DNA of 47,685 nt from a virus: positions 1 through 47,685 of the IMG/VR virus record IMGVR_UViG_3300026186_000003, one strand, 5' to 3'. A program made the position numbers and the translations under genes. Below, in pieces: positions 5,535 to 47,306 of this stretch. Below the pieces are notes generated by a model. The model saw only the letters and a program-made list of their open reading frames with translations, did not search any database and was not told the DNA's origin. Every line of letters starts with the position of its first letter. Position 1 is the stretch's first letter.

Positions 5535-6580
5535 AAATAGCATTATTGACTGATACACATTTTGGTATTAAAAATGATAATCAAACTTTTCAAAAATATT
5601 TAAATAAATTTTTTTCTGATGTATTTTTCCCATATATAGATGATCATGATATTAAAACTATTATACATTTAGGGGATCTAGTTGATAGACGGAAAACAAT
5701 TAATTTTTTAACCCTGAATAATTTACGTAAGAGTTTTATTCAACCAGCCTTTGATCGAAGTATTACCACACATATAATAGTTGGCAATCATGATGTCTAC
5801 TATAAAAACACAAATCAGATTAATGCTATAAATGAGTTGTATGGGGAAGCCCCTTTCATCTGGTCATACGAAGATGTGATTACTACTGAGTTTGATGGCC
5901 TTAAAGTGTGTTTTGTGCCATGGATTTGTTCAGAGAACTATGAAGAATCAATGGATGGGATAGAAGAATCTGATGCTCAGGTATTGATGGGTCATTTGGA
6001 GATCAGAGGATATTTGCTACAAAAAGGGATTCATTCTATGGTTGGACTGAAGCGAGATATATTTAATAAATTTGATACAGTTTATAGTGGGCATTTTCAT
6101 TATAAAAGTTCAGCTGATAATGTAGAATATCTTGGTACTCCCTATCAATTGATGTGGAGTGACTATGATTGTGAAAAAGGATTTTATATTTTTGATACAG
6201 ATACTCGTAAGCTAGAATTTATTGAAAATCCACATCAACTGTTCCATAAAATTGTATACGATGAAGATGTTTGGTATGATATTGATAGATTTGATTTTGA
6301 AAAGTATAAAGATAGCTATGTAAAAGTTGTAGTCAAAGAAAAGCCAGATAGCTATCTGTTTGATAATTTTTTGGATAAGTTGTATTCTGTCAATCCAAGC
6401 AGTGCTAATATCTTGGATGAAACTGAAATATTTTTAGCTGAAGATGAAGAAGTCACAGAAGCAGAAGATACATTGACCATACTATCTAAATATGTTTCTA
6501 ATCTAAATGTGGATTTGGACAAAACTGTATTGGATGGTTTACTAAGGGAGCTGTACTCAGAAGCAGTTGAAATTTTATGA
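5531..6580 (+). CDS. gp47: Recombination endonuclease subunit gp47 (Mre11-like)
   Basis: A 349-residue metallophosphoesterase-type nuclease (T4 gp47: 339 aa). Metal-binding motifs are visible in order: DTHFG near the N-terminus, GDLVDRR (about residues 48-54), GNHDVYY (about 87-93), and GHFH (about 187-190). With gp46 it resects double-strand ends to allow UvsX-driven strand invasion and recombination-dependent replication. It overlaps gp46 by the ATGA stop/start, so the two subunits are translationally coupled. Confidence 0.94.
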   Translation: MKIALLTDTHFGIKNDNQTFQKYLNKFFSDVFFPYIDDHDIKTIIHLGDLVDRRKTINFLTLNNLRKSFIQPAFDRSITTHIIVGNHDVYYKNTNQINAINELYGEAPFIWSYEDVITTEFDGLKVCFVPWICSENYEESMDGIEESDAQVLMGHLEIRGYLLQKGIHSMVGLKRDIFNKFDTVYSGHFHYKSSADNVEYLGTPYQLMWSDYDCEKGFYIFDTDTRKLEFIENPHQLFHKIVYDEDVWYDIDRFDFEKYKDSYVKVVVKEKPDSYLFDNFLDKLYSVNPSSANILDETEIFLAEDEEVTEAEDTLTILSKYVSNLNVDLDKTVLDGLLRELYSEAVEIL

Positions 6581-8289
6581 TAGAATTTGAAAAAATAAGA
6601 TGGAAGAATTTCCTCAGTACAGGAAATAATTTTACTGAATTGGCTCTCAATGGCCATGCTACTACATTGGTTATAGGGGAAAATGGTTCAGGCAAGTCTA
6701 CATTTTTAGATGCATTGACTTATGGATTATTTTCTAAGCCATTTCGTAAAATCAATAAGAATCAGATAATAAACTCTGTCAATAATAAAGCATGCCTAGT
6801 AGAAATTGAGTTTAAAATTGGAAGTAAAAATTATTTGGTTCGACGTGGGATTAAACCTACCGTTTTTGAGATTTATGTAGACGGTGAATTAATCAATCAA
6901 GATTCAAAGGCTAAGGATTATCAGGAAAAGCTAGAGAAACAGATTCTTAAATTGACATTCAAGAGCTTTACACAAATAATCCTCCTTGGTTCTAGCTCTT
7001 TTTTGCCTTTTATGAAATTGCCAGCTGCGCATAGGCGTGAAGTAATAGAAGATTTGTTAGACATTCAAATCTTTTCTATTATGAATCAAATACTGAAAGA
7101 AAGATACTCTGAGAACAAAATCAATATATCTGATAATAATCAAATATTGAATCTGAATTTAGAAAAGATTGATGTCCAACGAAAGTATATACAAGAAGTT
7201 AAAGAGATAAATTCTGATAAGATAGTAGATATCAGAAAATTGATTGAGACTACAAATCAAGAAATGTCTGATATCGATTTAAAGGTAATGGCATTGCAGG
7301 CCGAGGTTAAATCTTTATCCGAGAATATTAAGGATAGAGATAATTTGGTATCTGAAAGAAGTAAATTACAGCAAATAAAAATTAGTATAGAATCGATGAT
7401 AGAGAAGATTGGATCAGATATAAATTTCTTTGTCAATAATACTAATTGCCCCGTGTGTAAGCAGGATATCGAAGAAGATCATAGAGTGGAGATATTACAT
7501 AACAGGGAATCAGTTAAGGATTCAAAAGAAAATGGATTGAGGGAATTGAATGATCATTTAGAAGATTTATCTGGCAAGTTGGCAGCTATTGAATTATTCC
7601 AAGATGTGATCAATGATAAAGAAAAGGATATAACATCCTTGGGGTACAAGCACAGTTCATCAGAGGATTATGTTAAAAAATTGAATGATGAAATTGAATA
7701 TTTGTACAAGGTCAAGAAGAAATCTTATGGTGATGATGAGAAACTAAAGAACCTCAAAGAAGAAAGAGAGCAATTATATTCTAGTAGAAAGCGCTTATTG
7801 AAGGATAGAGATTATTTGAGCTTGGCCAGTAATCTGTTGAAGGATACAGGTATTAAGACTAGAATAATTAAGCAGTATTTACCTGTGATGAATAAGCTTA
7901 TTAATGGCTATTTGAATGCCATGGATTCTTATTTCAAGTTTACATTGGATGAAAATTTTAATGAGTTGATACAGAGTAGGTTCAGAGATGAATTTTCATA
8001 TGAAAATTTCAGTGAAGGCGAGAAGATGAGGATTGATCTGTCCTTGTTGTTTACGTGGAGATCTATAGCTAAAATGAAAAATAGTGCTAATACTAATCTG
8101 TTAGTGCTGGATGAAGTTTTTGATAGTTCTTTGGATTCAACAGGTACAGAGGAATTCTTGAAGTTGATTCAGACAGTAGGTCAGGATACTAATGTATTTG
8201 TAATTTCGCATAAGGGTGATGCACTGTATGAAAAATTTGAAAATAATATAACTTTTGCCAAAGTAGGCAATTTTAGTAAGGTGGTCTAG
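6577..8289 (+). CDS. gp46: Recombination endonuclease subunit gp46 (Rad50-like ATPase)
   Basis: A 570-residue SMC/Rad50-type ATPase (T4 gp46: 560 aa). Walker A is GENGSGKST (residues 34-42); a long coiled coil carries a zinc-hook CPVC at residues 291-294; the signature motif is FSEGEKMRIDLSLLF and Walker B is LLVLDEVFDSSLD near the C-terminus. It powers the gp47 nuclease. Genes gp47 and gp46 are adjacent and coupled as in T4. Confidence 0.95.
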   Translation: MIEFEKIRWKNFLSTGNNFTELALNGHATTLVIGENGSGKSTFLDALTYGLFSKPFRKINKNQIINSVNNKACLVEIEFKIGSKNYLVRRGIKPTVFEIYVDGELINQDSKAKDYQEKLEKQILKLTFKSFTQIILLGSSSFLPFMKLPAAHRREVIEDLLDIQIFSIMNQILKERYSENKINISDNNQILNLNLEKIDVQRKYIQEVKEINSDKIVDIRKLIETTNQEMSDIDLKVMALQAEVKSLSENIKDRDNLVSERSKLQQIKISIESMIEKIGSDINFFVNNTNCPVCKQDIEEDHRVEILHNRESVKDSKENGLRELNDHLEDLSGKLAAIELFQDVINDKEKDITSLGYKHSSSEDYVKKLNDEIEYLYKVKKKSYGDDEKLKNLKEEREQLYSSRKRLLKDRDYLSLASNLLKDTGIKTRIIKQYLPVMNKLINGYLNAMDSYFKFTLDENFNELIQSRFRDEFSYENFSEGEKMRIDLSLLFTWRSIAKMKNSANTNLLVLDEVFDSSLDSTGTEEFLKLIQTVGQDTNVFVISHKGDALYEKFENNITFAKVGNFSKVV

Positions 8290-17559: not shown

Positions 17560-18627
17560 ATGACAGATTTTTTAAGTGCATTAGTTAAAGATTTAGGTGA
17601 TGAACATACTACTATAGCTGCCGATAGGAAATCTTCGGCAGAGTATAGTGGTACAATTGATACAGGTTCTTATGCACTAAATGCTTTGTTCTCTGGTTCA
17701 ATTTATGGGGGTGTGCCCAATAATAAGATTACTGCCTTGGCAGGAGAAAGTGCAACAGGTAAAACATATTTTGCTTTGGGCTTGGTCAGGCGATTTTTAG
17801 AAACCAACGAAGGTGGAGGTGTTGTCTATTTTGATACAGAATCGGCTGTAACTGCAGATATGATGGAGCAAAGGCAAATTGACATCAATAGAGTTATTAA
17901 ATCTGAACCAGATACTATACAAAAGTTTAGGCATACTGTACTTACTATTTTAGACAATTATACTGCACAAGATGTAGAAGAACGTAGGCCAATGATGCTA
18001 GTTTTAGACAGCTTAGGTCAATTGTCATCCACTAAAGAAATGGAAGATAGTATTGCAGGTGAAGAAACAAGGGATATGACAAAGGCACAGCTACTGAAAG
18101 CTACATTCCGAGTATTGAACTTGAGATTAGCTAAAGCTGGTGTGCCTTTGATTGTATGTAATCATGTCTACGAAAAAGTTGGATCTTATGTACCAATGAA
18201 AGTAGCGTCAGGTGGATCTGGATTAACTTATTCAGCTTCGACCATTGCCATGTTGAGTAAAAAGAAAGAGCGAGAAGGTACTGATGTTATTGGTAATATC
18301 ATTAAAGCTAAAATGCACAAATCCAGATTGTCAAGAGAAAATAAAGAAGTAGAAGTTTTATTGACATATGATAAAGGATTAGATAGGTATTATGGTTTAA
18401 TTGATTTAGCAATTGAAGCCAAGATATTAAAGAAATCAGGAAATAGAATAGAGTTACCTGATGGGGCTAAGCAGTACGCAAAAACCATATACGAAAATCC
18501 AGAAAAATATTTTACATCTGATTTAATGGAGAAGATTGAAGAATATGCAGCTGCAGAATTTACATATGGTGGTATTCCAATTGAAGAAGAATTGGAAACG
18601 GAGATAGAAGAAGAAGAAGATGTCTAA
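17560..18627 (+). CDS. uvsX: UvsX RecA-like recombinase
   Basis: A 355-residue RecA/UvsX family ATPase (T4: 391). Walker A is GESATGKT (residues 62-69), Walker B region is MMLVLDSLGQL, and GGSGLTYSAS is the family loop. It performs homologous strand exchange and works with UvsY, gp46/47 and UvsW found elsewhere in the window. GGAG at 17551-17554 gives a ribosome site; the end overlaps gp41 by 8 bp. The C-terminus is very acidic, as in RecA. Confidence 0.96.
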   Translation: MTDFLSALVKDLGDEHTTIAADRKSSAEYSGTIDTGSYALNALFSGSIYGGVPNNKITALAGESATGKTYFALGLVRRFLETNEGGGVVYFDTESAVTADMMEQRQIDINRVIKSEPDTIQKFRHTVLTILDNYTAQDVEERRPMMLVLDSLGQLSSTKEMEDSIAGEETRDMTKAQLLKATFRVLNLRLAKAGVPLIVCNHVYEKVGSYVPMKVASGGSGLTYSASTIAMLSKKKEREGTDVIGNIIKAKMHKSRLSRENKEVEVLLTYDKGLDRYYGLIDLAIEAKILKKSGNRIELPDGAKQYAKTIYENPEKYFTSDLMEKIEEYAAAEFTYGGIPIEEELETEIEEEEDV

Positions 18628-20008
18628 TTTAGAATCAGCTGTTTTAAGAAATCTTTTATCCAATGAAGGATATTTACGAAAAGTTTTACCATTCTTGAAA
18701 TCAGAATATTTTTTGGAAAAGCCACAGAGGATTATATACAATGAATTGAGTAATTATTTAGAAAAGTACAACAGTACACCAACAGCTGAAATATTAAAAA
18801 TTTCAGTTGAGCAATTGGATACAATTACACAGGATGAATACAATGAGGTGGTTGAATACATATCTGAATTGAAATCTGATTTGGATTTGGAAACTGATAT
18901 AGAGTGGTTGACAGATGAAACAGAAAAGTTTTGCAAAGATAAGGCGCTGTATAATGCTATAATGAAATCTATTCAGATATATGATGACAAGGATCAAAAA
19001 GAAGATGTTGGTGTTATACCAGAATTGGTCAAGTCTGCATTGTCTATTAGTTTTGATCCAAATGTAGGGCATGATTACATTGATGATAGTGATGAAAGAT
19101 ATAAATTCTATCATACTAAAGAAGAAAAGGTGCCCTTTGATTTGGAGATTATGAACAAGATAACCAAAGGTGGCCTGTCTAAAAAAACTTTGAATATTGT
19201 TTTAGCTGGTACAGGTGTTGGTAAGAGTTTGTTTATGTGTCATTGTGCAGCTGGTAATCTGGATGCTGGGAAAAATGTATTGTATATTACATTGGAGATG
19301 GCTGAAGAAAGAATAGCCGAAAGAATTGATTCAAACTTAATGGATATAGCCATGGAAGATCTGCGACTTTTACCAAAGGATTTGTATGATAAAAAAATCC
19401 AAGAAGTAGAAAAGAAAACTGTGGGTAAGTTGATAGTCAAAGAATATCCAACAGCTGTGGCCAATGTAGCACATTTTAGGCACTTATTAAATGAATTGCG
19501 CTTGAAAAAGAACTTTTCACCTGATATAATATACATAGATTATCTTAATATCTGTTCATCGTTTAGGGTCAAGGCTACGGCTTATACTAACAGTTACAGT
19601 TATGTTAAATCGATAGCTGAAGAATTACGTGGGTTGGCAGTGGAAGTCAATGTTCCAATTATGAGTGCGACACAAACTAATAGAACAGGTTATAATAATA
19701 CAGATGTAGAGTTGACTGATACATCAGAGAGTTTTGGACTACCAGCTACAGCAGATTTTATGATAGCCTTGATTAGTACTGAAGAATTGGATGAATTAGA
19801 TCAGATAGCAGTCAAGCAATTGAAGAACAGGTACAATGATCCATTCTATTATAAGAAATTTGTAGTAGGGTTGAATAGGTCAAAGATGAAATTATATGAT
19901 GTTGAAGATTTTGCACAGGTGGAAGTGTCAGAGGATCAGGATGATGAAAATGTAATAGGGCATAATGGTAGGAAATCAGGATTCAATTTTGAAGGTATAC
20001 AACTGTAG
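18620..20008 (+). CDS. gp41: Replicative DNA helicase gp41 (DnaB family)
   Basis: A 462-residue DnaB-like helicase (T4: 475). An N-terminal helical domain precedes Walker A GTGVGKS (about residue 198), Walker B IIYIDYLNICSS and the SATQTNR motif with its following arginine-finger region. It forms the hexamer that, with primase gp61, opens the fork. A terminator closes the replication block right after it. Confidence 0.96.
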   Translation: MSNLESAVLRNLLSNEGYLRKVLPFLKSEYFLEKPQRIIYNELSNYLEKYNSTPTAEILKISVEQLDTITQDEYNEVVEYISELKSDLDLETDIEWLTDETEKFCKDKALYNAIMKSIQIYDDKDQKEDVGVIPELVKSALSISFDPNVGHDYIDDSDERYKFYHTKEEKVPFDLEIMNKITKGGLSKKTLNIVLAGTGVGKSLFMCHCAAGNLDAGKNVLYITLEMAEERIAERIDSNLMDIAMEDLRLLPKDLYDKKIQEVEKKTVGKLIVKEYPTAVANVAHFRHLLNELRLKKNFSPDIIYIDYLNICSSFRVKATAYTNSYSYVKSIAEELRGLAVEVNVPIMSATQTNRTGYNNTDVELTDTSESFGLPATADFMIALISTEELDELDQIAVKQLKNRYNDPFYYKKFVVGLNRSKMKLYDVEDFAQVEVSEDQDDENVIGHNGRKSGFNFEGIQL

Positions 20009-31864: not shown

Positions 31865-33859
31865 ATGGAAACAAATTTAGAAGTATTGAGTGATTTAGTT
31901 CATCATATGAAATACGCAAAATACTTAGAAGGAAAGAACCGCAGAGAAACATTTGAAGAAACAGTGACAAGAAACAGAGATATGCATATTAAGAAATTTC
32001 CAGAATTGAAAGATGAAATAACAGATGCTTATCAATATGTGTATGAGAAGAAAGTAATACCATCAATGAGGTCGATGCAATTCGCAGGAACGGCCATAGA
32101 AGTAAATCCAACCCGTATGTTCAATTGTTCATATTTGCCTATAGTAGAACCCGGCGCTTTTTGGGAAACAATGTTCTTGTTGTTATCTGGTGCTGGAGTT
32201 GGATATTCAGTACAAAGGCATCATGTAGAACAATTACCTGAAATTAGGAAACCAATAAAATCAAGGCGTTATTTGATTCAAGATAGTATTGAGGGATGGG
32301 CTGGTTCAATCAAAGTATTGATGAGAGCATATTTTGATAATCGGTCATTACCATTGTTTGATTACAGAGCTATAAGAGAAAAGGGTGCACGTTTAGTTAT
32401 TAGTGGCGGGAAAGCCCCTGGCCCTGAGCCTTTAAAAGTATGCTTAAATGAATTACAAAGAATATTAAATTTAAAAATGGATGGGGATAAATTGACCCCA
32501 CTTGAATGTCATGATATGATGTGTATTATTGCTGATGCTGTACTGTCGGGTGGTATACGTAGATCTGCCTTGATTTCACTTTTTAGTATTGATGATGAAT
32601 CAATGTTGAATTGTAAATCCTTACATCGAGCTGAAATCGATGAAGTGATAGGCAAGGTAAATGGTAGCTATAATGTAAGTGTTAATGTATTTAGAGAAGA
32701 TGAAGTTTATGAACAAAAAAATGTATGGATACCAAAATCAGATTTTGATAAATTGAAAGATGAAAGTTTATTACAGTGGTATTATTTACATCCATATAGG
32801 GCTCGCTCTAATAATTCAATGGTAGTAGCCAGATCTCTAATCACAGAAGATGTATTCAAGGAAAAATGGGATGTCATTAAAAATTCGGGTAGTGGAGAGC
32901 CAGGTTTATATTTTACTAACAATGTAGAATTGGGTTCAAATCCATGCTGTGAAATTAGTCTTAATGCTAATCAATTTTGTAATTTGACATCTATCAATGT
33001 GGCTACAATAGAGAGTCAGCAAGATTTAGAAGAACGAACTAAAGCTGCTACTTTTATTGGTACATTACAGGCTTCATATACTGATTTTCATTATTTGAAA
33101 CCAGAATGGAAAAAAGTGACAGAAAAAGAATCTCTATTAGGTGTATCATTAACAGGCATAGCTTCGATAGATCATACTCAGTTTGATTTCAAAAGAGCTG
33201 CTGATATATCAGTCGAAGAAAATCAAAGAGTTGCAAAAAAGTTAGGTATTGGTTCAGCTAAAAGGATAACTTGTATTAAGCCAGAAGGTACGGGAAGCTT
33301 GGTTTTGGGTACTAGCTCAGGTATACATGCTTGGCATAATGAACACTACAATCGTAGAATTAGAGTTGGCAAAAATGAAGCTATATATCAATATCTTGTA
33401 GGTACTAATCCTGATATAATGGAAGATGAAGTATTTGGAAATAATGCTGTTATTACAATTCCAATTAAATCACCAGCTGGGTCAGTCACTAGAACAGAAG
33501 ATGTTAAAGATTTGTTGCAACGTATTAAGTATTTTCATGAAAATTGGATACAGCCAGGTCATAAAAAAGGAATGAATACGCATAATGTATCAGCCACAAT
33601 ATCTATCAAACCAGATGAATGGGATGATGTGGCTGATTGGCTTTGGCAAAATCAAGATTCATTTAATGGATTGTCATTTTTGCCATATGATAATGGAAGT
33701 TATGTACAAGCACCATTTGAGGATATCACAGAAGGTGATTATGAACGAAATGTTATAAATATATCAAAGATTAATCTTGAAGATGTGATCGAGATTGATG
33801 ATAATACAGATTTGCAAGGAGAACTTGCTTGTAGTGGAGGCTCATGTGAGATAACATAA
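31865..33859 (+). CDS. nrdJ: Adenosylcobalamin-dependent (class II) ribonucleotide reductase
   Basis: A 664-residue monomeric ribonucleoside-triphosphate reductase type. Markers: FNCSYLPI (active-site Cys, about residues 90-97), SGGIRRSALISLF, NPCCEISLNANQFCNLTS (about 358-375, radical Cys region) and the C-terminal redox pair CSGGSC. It is somewhat shorter than the roughly 740-residue Lactobacillus type. It makes dNTP precursors and needs host or environmental vitamin B12. GGGAG lies upstream; its stop overlaps the next start by 1 base. Confidence 0.9.
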   Translation: METNLEVLSDLVHHMKYAKYLEGKNRRETFEETVTRNRDMHIKKFPELKDEITDAYQYVYEKKVIPSMRSMQFAGTAIEVNPTRMFNCSYLPIVEPGAFWETMFLLLSGAGVGYSVQRHHVEQLPEIRKPIKSRRYLIQDSIEGWAGSIKVLMRAYFDNRSLPLFDYRAIREKGARLVISGGKAPGPEPLKVCLNELQRILNLKMDGDKLTPLECHDMMCIIADAVLSGGIRRSALISLFSIDDESMLNCKSLHRAEIDEVIGKVNGSYNVSVNVFREDEVYEQKNVWIPKSDFDKLKDESLLQWYYLHPYRARSNNSMVVARSLITEDVFKEKWDVIKNSGSGEPGLYFTNNVELGSNPCCEISLNANQFCNLTSINVATIESQQDLEERTKAATFIGTLQASYTDFHYLKPEWKKVTEKESLLGVSLTGIASIDHTQFDFKRAADISVEENQRVAKKLGIGSAKRITCIKPEGTGSLVLGTSSGIHAWHNEHYNRRIRVGKNEAIYQYLVGTNPDIMEDEVFGNNAVITIPIKSPAGSVTRTEDVKDLLQRIKYFHENWIQPGHKKGMNTHNVSATISIKPDEWDDVADWLWQNQDSFNGLSFLPYDNGSYVQAPFEDITEGDYERNVINISKINLEDVIEIDDNTDLQGELACSGGSCEIT

Positions 33860-41025: not shown

Positions 41026-41244
41026 GTGATAAGAAACTTGAAAATAGCTAGAGAGCTGTTATGGTATAGTAGGTTTTTATTCGCCAAGGGCCGATTCCAA
41101 AAGAGTTGGCTTCTTTGGCGGATTGAAACCATATATGGAATTCCAGCTGATAATTTTCAATTTAGTCAACTTCCCCCAATCCGAAAAATAGCACATGACG
41201 TTTGGGGGTTTGGAAAATGGCTTGTACACTTACAACATAGGTAA
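41026..41244 (+). CDS. Small basic protein, unknown
   Basis: A 72-residue Trp/Arg-rich protein from GTG 41026 (weak TAGG upstream). First gene after P5. No family recognised; aromatic-basic surface suggests nucleic acid or membrane contact. Confidence 0.5.
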   Translation: MIRNLKIARELLWYSRFLFAKGRFQKSWLLWRIETIYGIPADNFQFSQLPPIRKIAHDVWGFGKWLVHLQHR

Positions 41245-43315: not shown

Positions 43316-44167
43316 ATGAGTATATTAGTTGACTATAGTCAGGTGTTCATATCTAACATCATGGCTCAACCGTCACATAACCGAGATATTGAAACCGACC
43401 TAATCCGTCATATGGTGCTAAATTCTTTACGCAGTCATAGACAAAAATTTAATTCCGAATATGGTGAACTAGTGATATGCTGCGACTCCAGACAAAATTG
43501 GAGAAAGTCATATTTCAAGCACTATAAGGCTAATCGTAAAATTACCCGTCAACGCACCAATGTAGATTGGAACTTACTATTTCAAAATTTGAATCAAATC
43601 AAAGAAGAGCTAGAAATTTATTTTCCATATCCAGTAATCGAAGTAGAAGGAGCAGAAGCCGATGATCTAATTGGCACCATCTGTCATGAAGAAAAAAATG
43701 AAAAACTAGACAACCTGATTTTGTCAGGTGACAAAGATTTTCAACAATTGCAGCAATATGACAATGTGCACCAATATAACCCAATGCGAAAAGAATTTAT
43801 TAGACAACCCAAACCCATCGATTTCCTAAAAGAGCAAATTCTACGTGGAGATCGAGGCGATGGTATTCCTAACATTCTATCAGCTGATGAGTCATTTGTG
43901 AATGGAGTTAGACAAACACCATTATCACTGACCAAAGTCAAGCAGTGGTTGGACTTAGAACCAGAAATTTTTTGCGATCATGATACACTGTCTAAGTATC
44001 GTCGAAATGAAACATTGATCGATTTATCAAAAACGCCCTCTGTATTAAAAAAGGAGTGCCTAGAACAATTATCTAGGCAAAAACTAGACAAGAATAGAAA
44101 GTACTTATTGAAGTATTTTACAAAATTCAATTTGAAAAATCTAACCGAGCATTTAGGAGAATTCTAA
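43316..44167 (+). CDS. rnh: RNase H / 5'-3' flap exonuclease
   Basis: A 283-residue FEN1-family nuclease (T4 RNase H: 305). Acidic metal ligands are spread through MSILVDYSQVF, VICCDSRQNWRKSYF, VEGAEADDLIGTI and LILSGDKDFQQL; the later RGDRGDGIPNI is the helix-hairpin DNA-binding segment. It removes RNA primers from the lagging strand. Confidence 0.93.
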   Translation: MSILVDYSQVFISNIMAQPSHNRDIETDLIRHMVLNSLRSHRQKFNSEYGELVICCDSRQNWRKSYFKHYKANRKITRQRTNVDWNLLFQNLNQIKEELEIYFPYPVIEVEGAEADDLIGTICHEEKNEKLDNLILSGDKDFQQLQQYDNVHQYNPMRKEFIRQPKPIDFLKEQILRGDRGDGIPNILSADESFVNGVRQTPLSLTKVKQWLDLEPEIFCDHDTLSKYRRNETLIDLSKTPSVLKKECLEQLSRQKLDKNRKYLLKYFTKFNLKNLTEHLGEF

Positions 44168-44686: not shown

Positions 44687-45085
44687 ATGAAGACTTATTT
44701 TATAGACATAGACGGAACTATATTTAAACATTTGACAAATCAGCTACTTGATGGAGCTAAAGAATTTTTAGACAATATCTATGAAAATGATGATATGATA
44801 ATCTTGACAACTGCTAGGCATGATACGGAAAGTAAGCTTACAGAAGAAGCTTTAGCTAAACATGGTATAGAGTATGACATGATATTGTATAATTTAGGCA
44901 ATGATGAAAGAATATTGATAAATGATACAAAGCCTACAGGAAAGCAGACAGCATATTCGTTAAATGTAGAAAGAAACAAGGGTTTGTCTAAATATCATAA
45001 TTGGGAGCCAGGCGATATATTCCTAAGAAAACCAGATAAAAGTGTATCTGTCTATAGTAAAGACGGAATATTAAAAAAGTCTTAA
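44687..45085 (+). CDS. HAD-family phosphatase
   Basis: A 132-residue haloacid dehalogenase-type protein: DIDGTIF (residues 7-13, nucleophile and acid), LTTAR (about 40-44) and INDTKPTGKQTA (about 84-95, Lys and acidic motif region). Small phage HAD proteins may act on nucleotides or 5'/3' phosphates; the substrate is not evident. Last gene before the structured intergenic region. Confidence 0.75.
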   Translation: MKTYFIDIDGTIFKHLTNQLLDGAKEFLDNIYENDDMIILTTARHDTESKLTEEALAKHGIEYDMILYNLGNDERILINDTKPTGKQTAYSLNVERNKGLSKYHNWEPGDIFLRKPDKSVSVYSKDGILKKS

Positions 45086-45351
45086 AAAACGTGTTTTAGT
45101 GGTTTTGAGTGTCGTTGAGTTTCTTGGCGAGTACCTTTGATGTTCCCAACACTCAGGAAAATTTTTGTTGACACCTTCAAACACACGCCACCACTGGATT
45201 TGAGATATACTTGACATACATTTCAGAGAAGTTGACATAACATTAAAGTCGTGTCAACTTTTTTCTGCGCCCACCAAAAATCCAGTCATAGCTTGACATT
45301 TTCCTATTTTACAGTATCTCAAAGAAAGTTGGTCGAAATGTGAAAATAGCC
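45086..45351. other. Intergenic region rich in inverted repeats and TTGACA words
   Basis: No gene seen. Inverted repeats include CTGGATTT (45194-45201) with AAATCCAG (45278-45285), and TTTGAGATA (45199-45207) with TATCTCAAA (45315-45323); both enclose the hairpin at 45229-45260. TTGACA words occur at about 45169, 45211, 45232 and 45293. Base composition is less A-rich than around it. It could be a control region, structured RNA or replication origin. Confidence 0.6.
45229..45264 (+). terminator. Hairpin/terminator in the intergenic region
   Basis: AAGTTGACA / TGTCAACTT, a 9-bp stem with a 14-nt loop followed by TTTT. Stops transcripts from the RNase H block, or is part of the larger structure. 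Confidence 0.6.
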
Positions 45352-45381
45352 TTGACTTTGGGTAGCGCCATATGGTATAAT
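45352..45381 (+). promoter_or_regulatory. Early promoter P6
   Basis: TTGACT (one mismatch), 18-nt spacer ending ATATGG, TATAAT (45376-45381), preceded by GTGAAAATAGCC. It is flanked by TTGGTCGA (45329-45336) and TCGACCAA (45420-45427), an inverted repeat. No gene with a ribosome site follows for over 600 nt. Confidence 0.85.
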
Positions 45382-45525
45382 ATACTTGTTAAGCATTTGA
45401 AATAGAGATTTGATCAAAATCGACCAAAAATGACAAATATTGAGCTAAAAATACCAAAAACAGACCAAAACAGCTGTATTTCAGTCCATAGTCAATTTTC
45501 AGCTCAAAAACAGCTCAGTTTCAAC

Positions 45526-45693
45526 AAAAAAGTTGGCACAGTTTGTGAATTGGGAAAATGGACTAAAAAGCAGCTGAAAATTGATATTGAGAAGCTGAAA
45601 AAAGTTGGCACAGTTTGTGAATCACAGAATTTTACAAAATGTTTACAAAAAAGCTCAAAAAAGTGGTTTTTTGACTTGGCACGGTTTGTGATT
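45526..45693. repeat. Three copies of a TTGGCACAGTTTGTGAAT element
   Basis: Copy 1 is 45526-45550 and copy 2 is 45598-45622, identical over 25 bases; copy 3 (45675-45693) has TTGGCACGGTTTGTGATT. Core starts are 45533, 45605 and 45676, giving 72- and 71-nt spacing. Confidence 0.9.
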
Positions 45694-45862
45694 CATGAAA
45701 GTGCACTAAAAAGTAGCTTTTTGAGCGATTTTGAGCTTTTCGACCAAAAATCAAAAATTCATAAAAAAGCGCTTTTTAGTCTAAAAAGTGGTTTTTTGAG
45801 CTTTTTGAGCAGTTATGAAAAGTTTTTTGATTTTGGGGAAAGTCGAAAAGGACAGTTATATA

Positions 45863-45936
45863 GGGTATCTCTGAAAATCGAGGGTGAAGTTCGGCTAGAC
45901 ACGCCCAAACACGAGCAGAGATTTTCAGAGATACCC
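45863..45936. repeat. Perfect 17-bp inverted repeat with 40-nt loop
   Basis: GGGTATCTCTGAAAATC (45863-45879) and its exact complement (45920-45936). Loop bases are GC-richer than the surroundings. A run of A/T-rich bases follows. Confidence 0.95.
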
Positions 45937-45993
45937 CCAGAAAAATTTTTTAAAATTTTTTTTATAAAAATGGTCAAAAACAGCTGTTTTACC

Positions 45994-46023
45994 TTGACAA
46001 CGGCCCCTGAAATATGGTATAAT
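45994..46023 (+). promoter_or_regulatory. Early promoter P7 with palindromic operator-like site
   Basis: TTGACA (45994-45999), 18-nt spacer ending ATATGG, TATAAT (46018-46023). The palindrome AAAACAGCTGTTTT (45977-45990) ends 3 bases before the -35; the same arrangement is at P10. Confidence 0.9.
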
Positions 46024-46050
46024 ATAGGAAAAGGGAAAAGGAAAAACGAA

Positions 46051-46386
46051 ATGAAACAGATTCCAAGAGAAGATAGAGTGATGCTTTCACAAACTGATTT
46101 AGAAAATGAAAATAAATCGAAAAAAGTGAAAATAGCCTTGACATTGGTCAAGGAAATATGGTATAATATAGGAAAAGGAAAAGAAATGAGAATCATTCCA
46201 ACCATTGCCACTAATTTACATTTGGACATTCAAAAGAAAGTCCAAAATTCAACCCAAAAAGAAATTATCAAAAAAGAGTACCAGAAAAATCGTGAGGAAT
46301 TTCTGAAAAGAGTATACCAGACCCTACGAAAAAACTTTGTAAAAAGTGAAAATAGCCTTGACAATGGTCAAGGAAATATGGTATAA
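46051..46386 (+). CDS. Small Lys/Glu-rich protein with a nested promoter
   Basis: A 111-residue frame from ATG 46051, preceded by AAAAGGAAAAAC. Promoter P8 lies inside it (46138-46167) without breaking the frame, and a second start, ATG 46186 with AAAAGGAAAAG upstream, would give a 66-residue product (MRIIPTIATNLHLDIQKKVQ at its start). The stop codon TAA is part of the -10 of P9. One or both products may be real. No family recognised; the 66-residue form is helical and basic. Confidence 0.45.
   Translation: MKQIPREDRVMLSQTDLENENKSKKVKIALTLVKEIWYNIGKGKEMRIIPTIATNLHLDIQKKVQNSTQKEIIKKEYQKNREEFLKRVYQTLRKNFVKSENSLDNGQGNMV
46138..46167 (+). promoter_or_regulatory. Early promoter P8
   Basis: TTGACA (46138-46143), 18-nt spacer, TATAAT (46162-46167), preceded by GTGAAAATAGCC. 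CCTTGAC / GTCAAGG arms (46136-46153) form a small palindrome over the -35. Confidence 0.9.
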
Positions 46387-46874: not shown

Positions 46875-47306
46875 ATGAAAAAACAAACAGGGAATACCAG
46901 CGGTCGAGAATTTGAAAAATCAATAGAATCAATTATCAATCGAAAAACTGGATTTTCTAGTATACTTAATTCCAAGGCAAAAACTTTAAAAAATAATCTA
47001 ATCAGGGAATACCCATACACTACAATGTACGGGAGCAAGGGTAGAGTCGATTTTAGATTAAATTTAAATCAAAAAACCTATTATATTGAATGTAAATATC
47101 AAAGTTCTGCTGGAAGTGTAGATGAAAAATTAGTATACACTTTATATAACATGGATCAGCATGATGGTATTAAAATTATTGTTATCGACGGTCATGGTTG
47201 GAGAAAATCAACTCTAAATTGGATTTATAAAGCTTCTAAAAATACAGATACAAAAGTTATGAATCTTGAAAAATTTAAAAAATTTGTGGAGAAAATTTCT
47301 AAATAA
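46875..47306 (+). CDS. PD-(D/E)XK nuclease-like protein
   Basis: A 143-residue protein. GREFEK near the N-terminus, then GRVDFRL (D about residue 58) and YYIECKYQ (E72-x-K74, approximately) give the D...ExK active site of this superfamily, followed by the Gln/Ser region and a VDEKLVYTLYNM helix. It is similar to phage PD-(D/E)XK proteins that resemble Holliday-junction or restriction nucleases. It could serve in host DNA breakdown or recombination. Confidence 0.7.
   Translation: MKKQTGNTSGREFEKSIESIINRKTGFSSILNSKAKTLKNNLIREYPYTTMYGSKGRVDFRLNLNQKTYYIECKYQSSAGSVDEKLVYTLYNMDQHDGIKIIVIDGHGWRKSTLNWIYKASKNTDTKVMNLEKFKKFVEKISK

Follow-up and report, generated by a model that had tools for sequence, protein, structure and literature searches.

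A conserved noncoding stretch behind an early promoter of a T4-like phage and the untranslated RNA predicted from it

ROOL and GOLLD RNAs assemble by themselves into RNA-only cages and are often found beside a tRNA island, a context that is common without being strictly required. Both occur in phages and prophages and are long, structured and untranslated (PMC12286853). The Vibrio phage ICP1 has an abundant noncoding RNA of ~800 nt between gp139 and gp140 (PMC7567579), and at oriF and oriG of phage T4 a promoter is followed by a stretch from which a transcript may function untranslated (PMC4412123). The locus described here lies in a window of 47,685 bp, the complete IMG/VR record IMGVR_UViG_3300026186_000003, which by gene content comes from a T4-like phage whose nearest annotated phages reach a protein identity of just ~47%, in the SbcC-like gene. 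The + strand carries all likely genes of the window, among them the following:

608-2041, + strand, major head protein
6577-8289, + strand, SbcC-like exonuclease subunit
18620-20008, + strand, DnaB-like helicase
31865-33859, + strand, ribonucleotide reductase
43316-44167, + strand, RNase H

The genome is packed, the one large gap without a gene running for ~965 nt from the stop of a phosphatase-like gene at 45086 to the next small gene at ~46051; no other gap in the window exceeds 184 nt. A tRNA scan of the 47.7-kb window found none, and a genome-contig search with the neighbouring phosphatase-like gene returned no relative. A DpnII-like PD-(D/E)XK nuclease gene (46875-47306) lies among the early genes, and a search for its relatives in viral contigs also returned none. 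The gap holds these features:

45134-45205, no strand assigned, most conserved noncoding block, after the HAD-phosphatase-like gene and before the terminator
45229-45264, + strand, intrinsic terminator of the upstream operon, stem-loop AAGTTGACA followed by TTTTTT
45352-45381, + strand, P6, sigma70-type early promoter with extended -10, 11/12 consensus positions
45388-45700, + strand, conserved 5' section of the transcript predicted to be untranslated, with hairpin H1 and three spaced repeats
45430-46386, + strand, open frame of 318 aa, judged a non-gene from omega, codon phase and its lengths in relatives
45471-45576, + strand, hairpin H1, enclosing repeat 1, arms 45471-45489 and 45558-45576, with compensatory changes
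45533-45551, + strand, repeat 1, TTGGCACRGWTTGTGAWTC
45605-45623, + strand, repeat 2
45676-45694, + strand, repeat 3
45701-45965, + strand, 3' part, AU-rich and variable, in which A-tracts and U-tracts form short hairpins, 34-46% divergence from the relative L008

The transcript predicted behind P6 would resemble ROOL and GOLLD in being long, structured and untranslated, but its distribution is much narrower, its 5' half alone is conserved, its structure is far less elaborate and no tRNA lies nearby. Like the ICP1 RNA, the predicted transcript would be long and come from an ORF-free gap in a lytic phage without tRNAs, whereas the ICP1 RNA stands at the start of the lysis cluster and the P6 stretch among early genes; a search of the annotated phage collection gave no sequence match to the stretch. 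The likeness to oriF and oriG is confined to the layout of a promoter and an untranslated stretch: P6, with its good -35, is of the early type and a member of the 11 sigma70-consensus promoters, whereas the T4 promoters are middle-mode, and the stretch has neither an unstable DNA element, its nearest-neighbour stability being ordinary, nor a skew switch. The whole window had no match in Rfam at the gathering threshold, and relaxed thresholds yielded no known RNA family, ROOL and GOLLD being absent also from the matches to E 10 (45080-46050) and to E 5 (the relatives L007 and L008); because the P6 stretch fails the sequence/structure test for each Rfam family, we file it under none. CsrA/RsmA sponge RNAs carry many GGA motifs in loops. 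A sponge of this kind was considered and rejected, GGA being depleted in the stretch (4 occur, where the window average predicts 9.7).

The same locus is present in two IMG/VR contigs, L007 (~96% DNA identity) and L008 (~82%), which with the window form a comparison set of three sequences, two of them 95% alike. Pattern scans with three different conserved words returned, beyond chance matches, just these two contigs. Annotated phages yielded no DNA relative, the matches of the distant-mode search spanning 25-43 nt and being attributable to chance, and other contigs with the 16-mer repeat pattern, which have no comparable spaced cluster, likewise look like chance. In the more distant relative L038, RNase H is followed, in the order seen in the window, by the phosphatase-like gene and then by an AAA-type ATPase gene, assigned by eye from sequence and not by a family search; the promoter family is also shared at this place, and the sequence of the stretch is absent from it. 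Elsewhere, 712 nt directly 3' of RNase H in the relative L040 (8847-9558, corresponding to L042 2451-3163) have no listed ORFs of at least 70 aa, fold beyond shuffles (z -3.8 on each strand), end in a GC-rich terminator and match no Rfam family at the gathering score, and L033 carries at 7430-8000 a structured noncoding stretch with a 17-bp perfect stem (AGCAAGAACCATGCCAA/TTGGCATGGTTCTTGCT). These L033 and L040 intervals after RNase H are structured too, and no relation to the P6 stretch was detected.

P6 reads TTGACT-N18-TATAAT, with a predicted start near 45388, and is kept in L007 and in L008, where the -35 is a perfect TTGACA; the strong promoter that the sequence-only reading placed ahead of the stretch is thereby borne out. 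It belongs to 11 near-identical promoters in the window of the form (C)CTTGACA-N18-ATATGGTATAAT, and is the sole member without a gene close behind, the others having a start codon within ~60 nt. Later promoters follow at 45994, 46138 and 46358; at 46136-46153 and 46356-46373 an inverted repeat CCTTGAC..GTCAAGG spans the -35, as if it were a built-in operator. Upstream, the terminator has the same folding z of -4.85 in the window and in L008, and an inner pair is exchanged from A-U to G-C with pairing kept. This terminator insulates P6 against transcription from upstream, and since it is conserved and P6 is a strong promoter of its own, we regard P6 as the start of an insulated unit. Further upstream, the block 45134-45205, which holds TTGACAC and CAAACACACGCCACCAC, differs from L008 at 5 of 72 sites (7%), against 36-43% at synonymous sites of the neighbouring genes; it lies upstream of P6 and outside the interval taken up by the sequence-only reading.

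Divergence between the window and L008 is uneven along the locus: 8% in the terminator, 14% at 45265-45342, 20% around P6, 29% over the opening 73 nt of the predicted transcript, 14% at 45461-45582 and 15% at 45583-45700, then 46% at 45701-45840 and 34% at 45841-45965. The constrained element thus covers ~45134-45700, mostly at 7-15% against the synonymous 36-43%, and begins upstream of the interval first proposed. Nucleotides are conserved in the 5' part, but constraint on the full 600 nt is not supported, 45701-45965 drifting at the pace of synonymous sites. A U-rich tract at 45943-45962, kept in the relatives, closes the 3' part and may be a weak terminator; a terminator scan called none there and found no strong one before 45994.

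Within the constrained part, the repeat TTGGCACRGTTTGTGA begins at 45533, 45605 and 45676, with spacings of 72 and 71 nt; two copies are identical and the third differs at the R position alone. All three repeats keep the same spacing in the window, L007 and L008, so the three spaced repeats reported earlier are both present and conserved in position. Their RNA context differs from copy to copy, with no single consistent setting. The idea that the repeat acts as antisense to other sites in the window was dropped, as the - strand held no match with up to 3 mismatches.

The helix of H1 is conserved by compensatory changes across the three sequences, in keeping with the earlier description of the stretch as structured: C-G becomes G-C (45487/45560) and U-A becomes A-U (45489/45558), two to three pairs overall. 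When the same substitutions were placed at random in a Monte Carlo procedure, compensations as seen had P 0.0009 on the window structure and 0.02 on that of L008, and the scarcity of broken pairs P 0.003 and 0.00005, respectively; since only three sequences, two of them 95% alike, were available, this covariation rests on few changes. Among changes in H1 of L008 that pair only as G-U, 4 fit the + strand and 1-2 the - strand, and the change at 45482/45565 is compatible with the - strand alone. An H1 covariance model and DNA profiles, run over ~75 T4-like relatives, found no further copy save a weak resemblance in the gene for 72 aa at 41026-41244. There, 58 nt of coding sequence agree with part of H1 at roughly two thirds of their positions, by common origin or by chance; the covariance model gave E 0.003 in the window and 2e-4 in L007.

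Over the whole region, folding exceeded dinucleotide shuffles with z -6.8 in the window and -3.9 and -4.7 in L007 and L008; against trinucleotide shuffles the + strand gave z -3.4, -1.1 and -2.1 for the window, L007 and L008, and the - strand of the window z -4.4. The excess of self-complementary A/T words noted earlier is real, and the shrinking of the folding excess under trinucleotide shuffles means that some of it comes from A/T-word composition. Against column shuffles, consensus folding gave z -5.7 for the + strand, -5.8 for the complementary strand and -4.1 for 45388-45720; as the excess is equal on both strands, inverted repeats at the DNA level would explain it too. The 17-bp perfect inverted repeat (45863-45879/45920-45936) to which the sequence-only reading also pointed is present in the window, but as a functional part it is not supported: its folding z falls from -6.6 in the window to -1.7 in L007 and +0.2 in L008, the hairpin being lost in both relatives. 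It lies in the unconstrained 3' half, and we rejected it as a key part.

No ribosome site followed by an open frame of at least 8 codons was found in 45388-46000, and the 45430 frame does run through the promoters at 45994, 46138 and 46358, both as first noted. Its omega is 1.04 between the window and L007 and 0.68 between the window and L008, and its changes fall on the three codon positions as 27/29/33, an absence of phase bias that counts against a gene on both strands; the controls (RNase H, the 44201 gene and the phosphatase-like gene) gave omega 0.05-0.15 with a third-position excess. The frame is open for 318 aa in the window, 215 in L007 and 135 in L008, with differing ends, and its product has no family match. 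Purifying selection on codons, named at the outset as the result that would contradict a noncoding stretch, is thus absent, and on this codon test we rejected 45430 as a protein gene.

A product of P6 is therefore very unlikely to be a protein, and as the conserved part consists of H1 and the repeats, an untranslated RNA is the simplest reading. Noncoding sequence, conservation in two relatives, a conserved hairpin and three repeats together make a new untranslated early RNA probable, and we place at about even the chance that the locus gives a P6-driven, narrowly distributed, structured RNA of this kind, as predicted from sequence. P6 would start an insulated early transcript of roughly 300-580 nt, depending on where its putative 3' end falls; its functional domain would be the first ~310 nt, comprising H1 and, at even spacing, three copies of UUGGCACRGWUUGUGAWUC, and the 3' ~260 nt would form a variable, replaceable AU-rich tail. 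We infer that this transcript is made and that selection acts on it as RNA rather than on the DNA. Early in infection, the RNA would probably work in trans through the 5' domain, where the repeated element would offer a multivalent binding site for a partner, one host or phage protein or RNA. A tentative suggestion is that it belongs to a new class of early phage noncoding RNAs in which the 5' domain, with its three near-identical elements at even spacing, is a multivalent decoy for a host factor, or a scaffold for it, at takeover. Against an RNA we count the position of the most conserved block, upstream of the predicted transcript, and the lack of a clear 3' terminator.

The main rival is a control or replication region that acts as DNA in cis, which would account for the symmetry between strands and for the position of the conserved block ahead of P6. 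Here the repeats would be sites for a phage DNA-binding protein, the P6 transcript would activate or prime, and the inverted repeats would work at the DNA level. Direct repeats of 19 bp, evenly spaced and conserved in position, would suit such sites, constraint does reach back beyond P6 into DNA that looks untranscribed and has several TTGACA-like words, the folding excess is symmetric between strands, and T4 oriF and oriG combine a promoter with a downstream unwinding element (PMC4412123). Yet GC skew, as read on this fragment record, is positive on either side, with the long genes all in one direction and no skew switch; the duplex is of ordinary stability, with 6-46% of the window less stable; P6 belongs to a general early-type family whereas T4 origins use a middle-mode promoter; and the stretch is missing from the syntenic place in L038. 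The origin transcript proposed by the sequence-only reading accordingly gains no positive support from skew or DNA stability, and we consider a cis-acting region possible, though on the unlikely side.

Less probable still is a long untranslated leader, by which the P6 transcript would read into the small early genes from 46051 onward and control their expression or RNA stability: the downstream genes share the strand and no strong terminator intervenes before 45994, but each has its own perfect promoter within ~60 nt, so that a P6 leader would add little, the part adjoining them is the unconstrained part, and the genes themselves vary among relatives. We see little likelihood that the stretch is left over from a pseudogene or from repeats and is decaying between two operons, selection acting on promoter and terminator alone. 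The freely drifting 3' half and the resemblance of 58 nt of H1 to part of the coding gene 41026-41244 would fit, but 45461-45700 diverges well below the synonymous rate and carries compensatory changes and three positioned repeats, and debris would be unexpected in a genome otherwise nearly gap-free. The 45430 frame as an early protein gene deserves almost no credence; its open lengths in the three sequences speak for it, and omega of about 0.7-1.0, the even codon phase, the missing ribosome site and family match and the differing ends against it.

We conclude that the stretch is real, noncoding and conserved, and that it most likely represents a new family, narrow in range, of early phage RNAs predicted to go untranslated. 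Lytic phages devote little DNA to non-gene sequence, and a conserved untranslated unit of 600 nt with its own early promoter is for this reason likely to be useful to the phage. For the present, being so narrowly distributed, it is of limited general importance. An untranslated RNA acting in trans would constitute a new family of phage RNAs at work in the takeover stage; if the stretch acts instead at the DNA level, it would point to a region of control or replication in a branch of the T4-like phages about which little is known.
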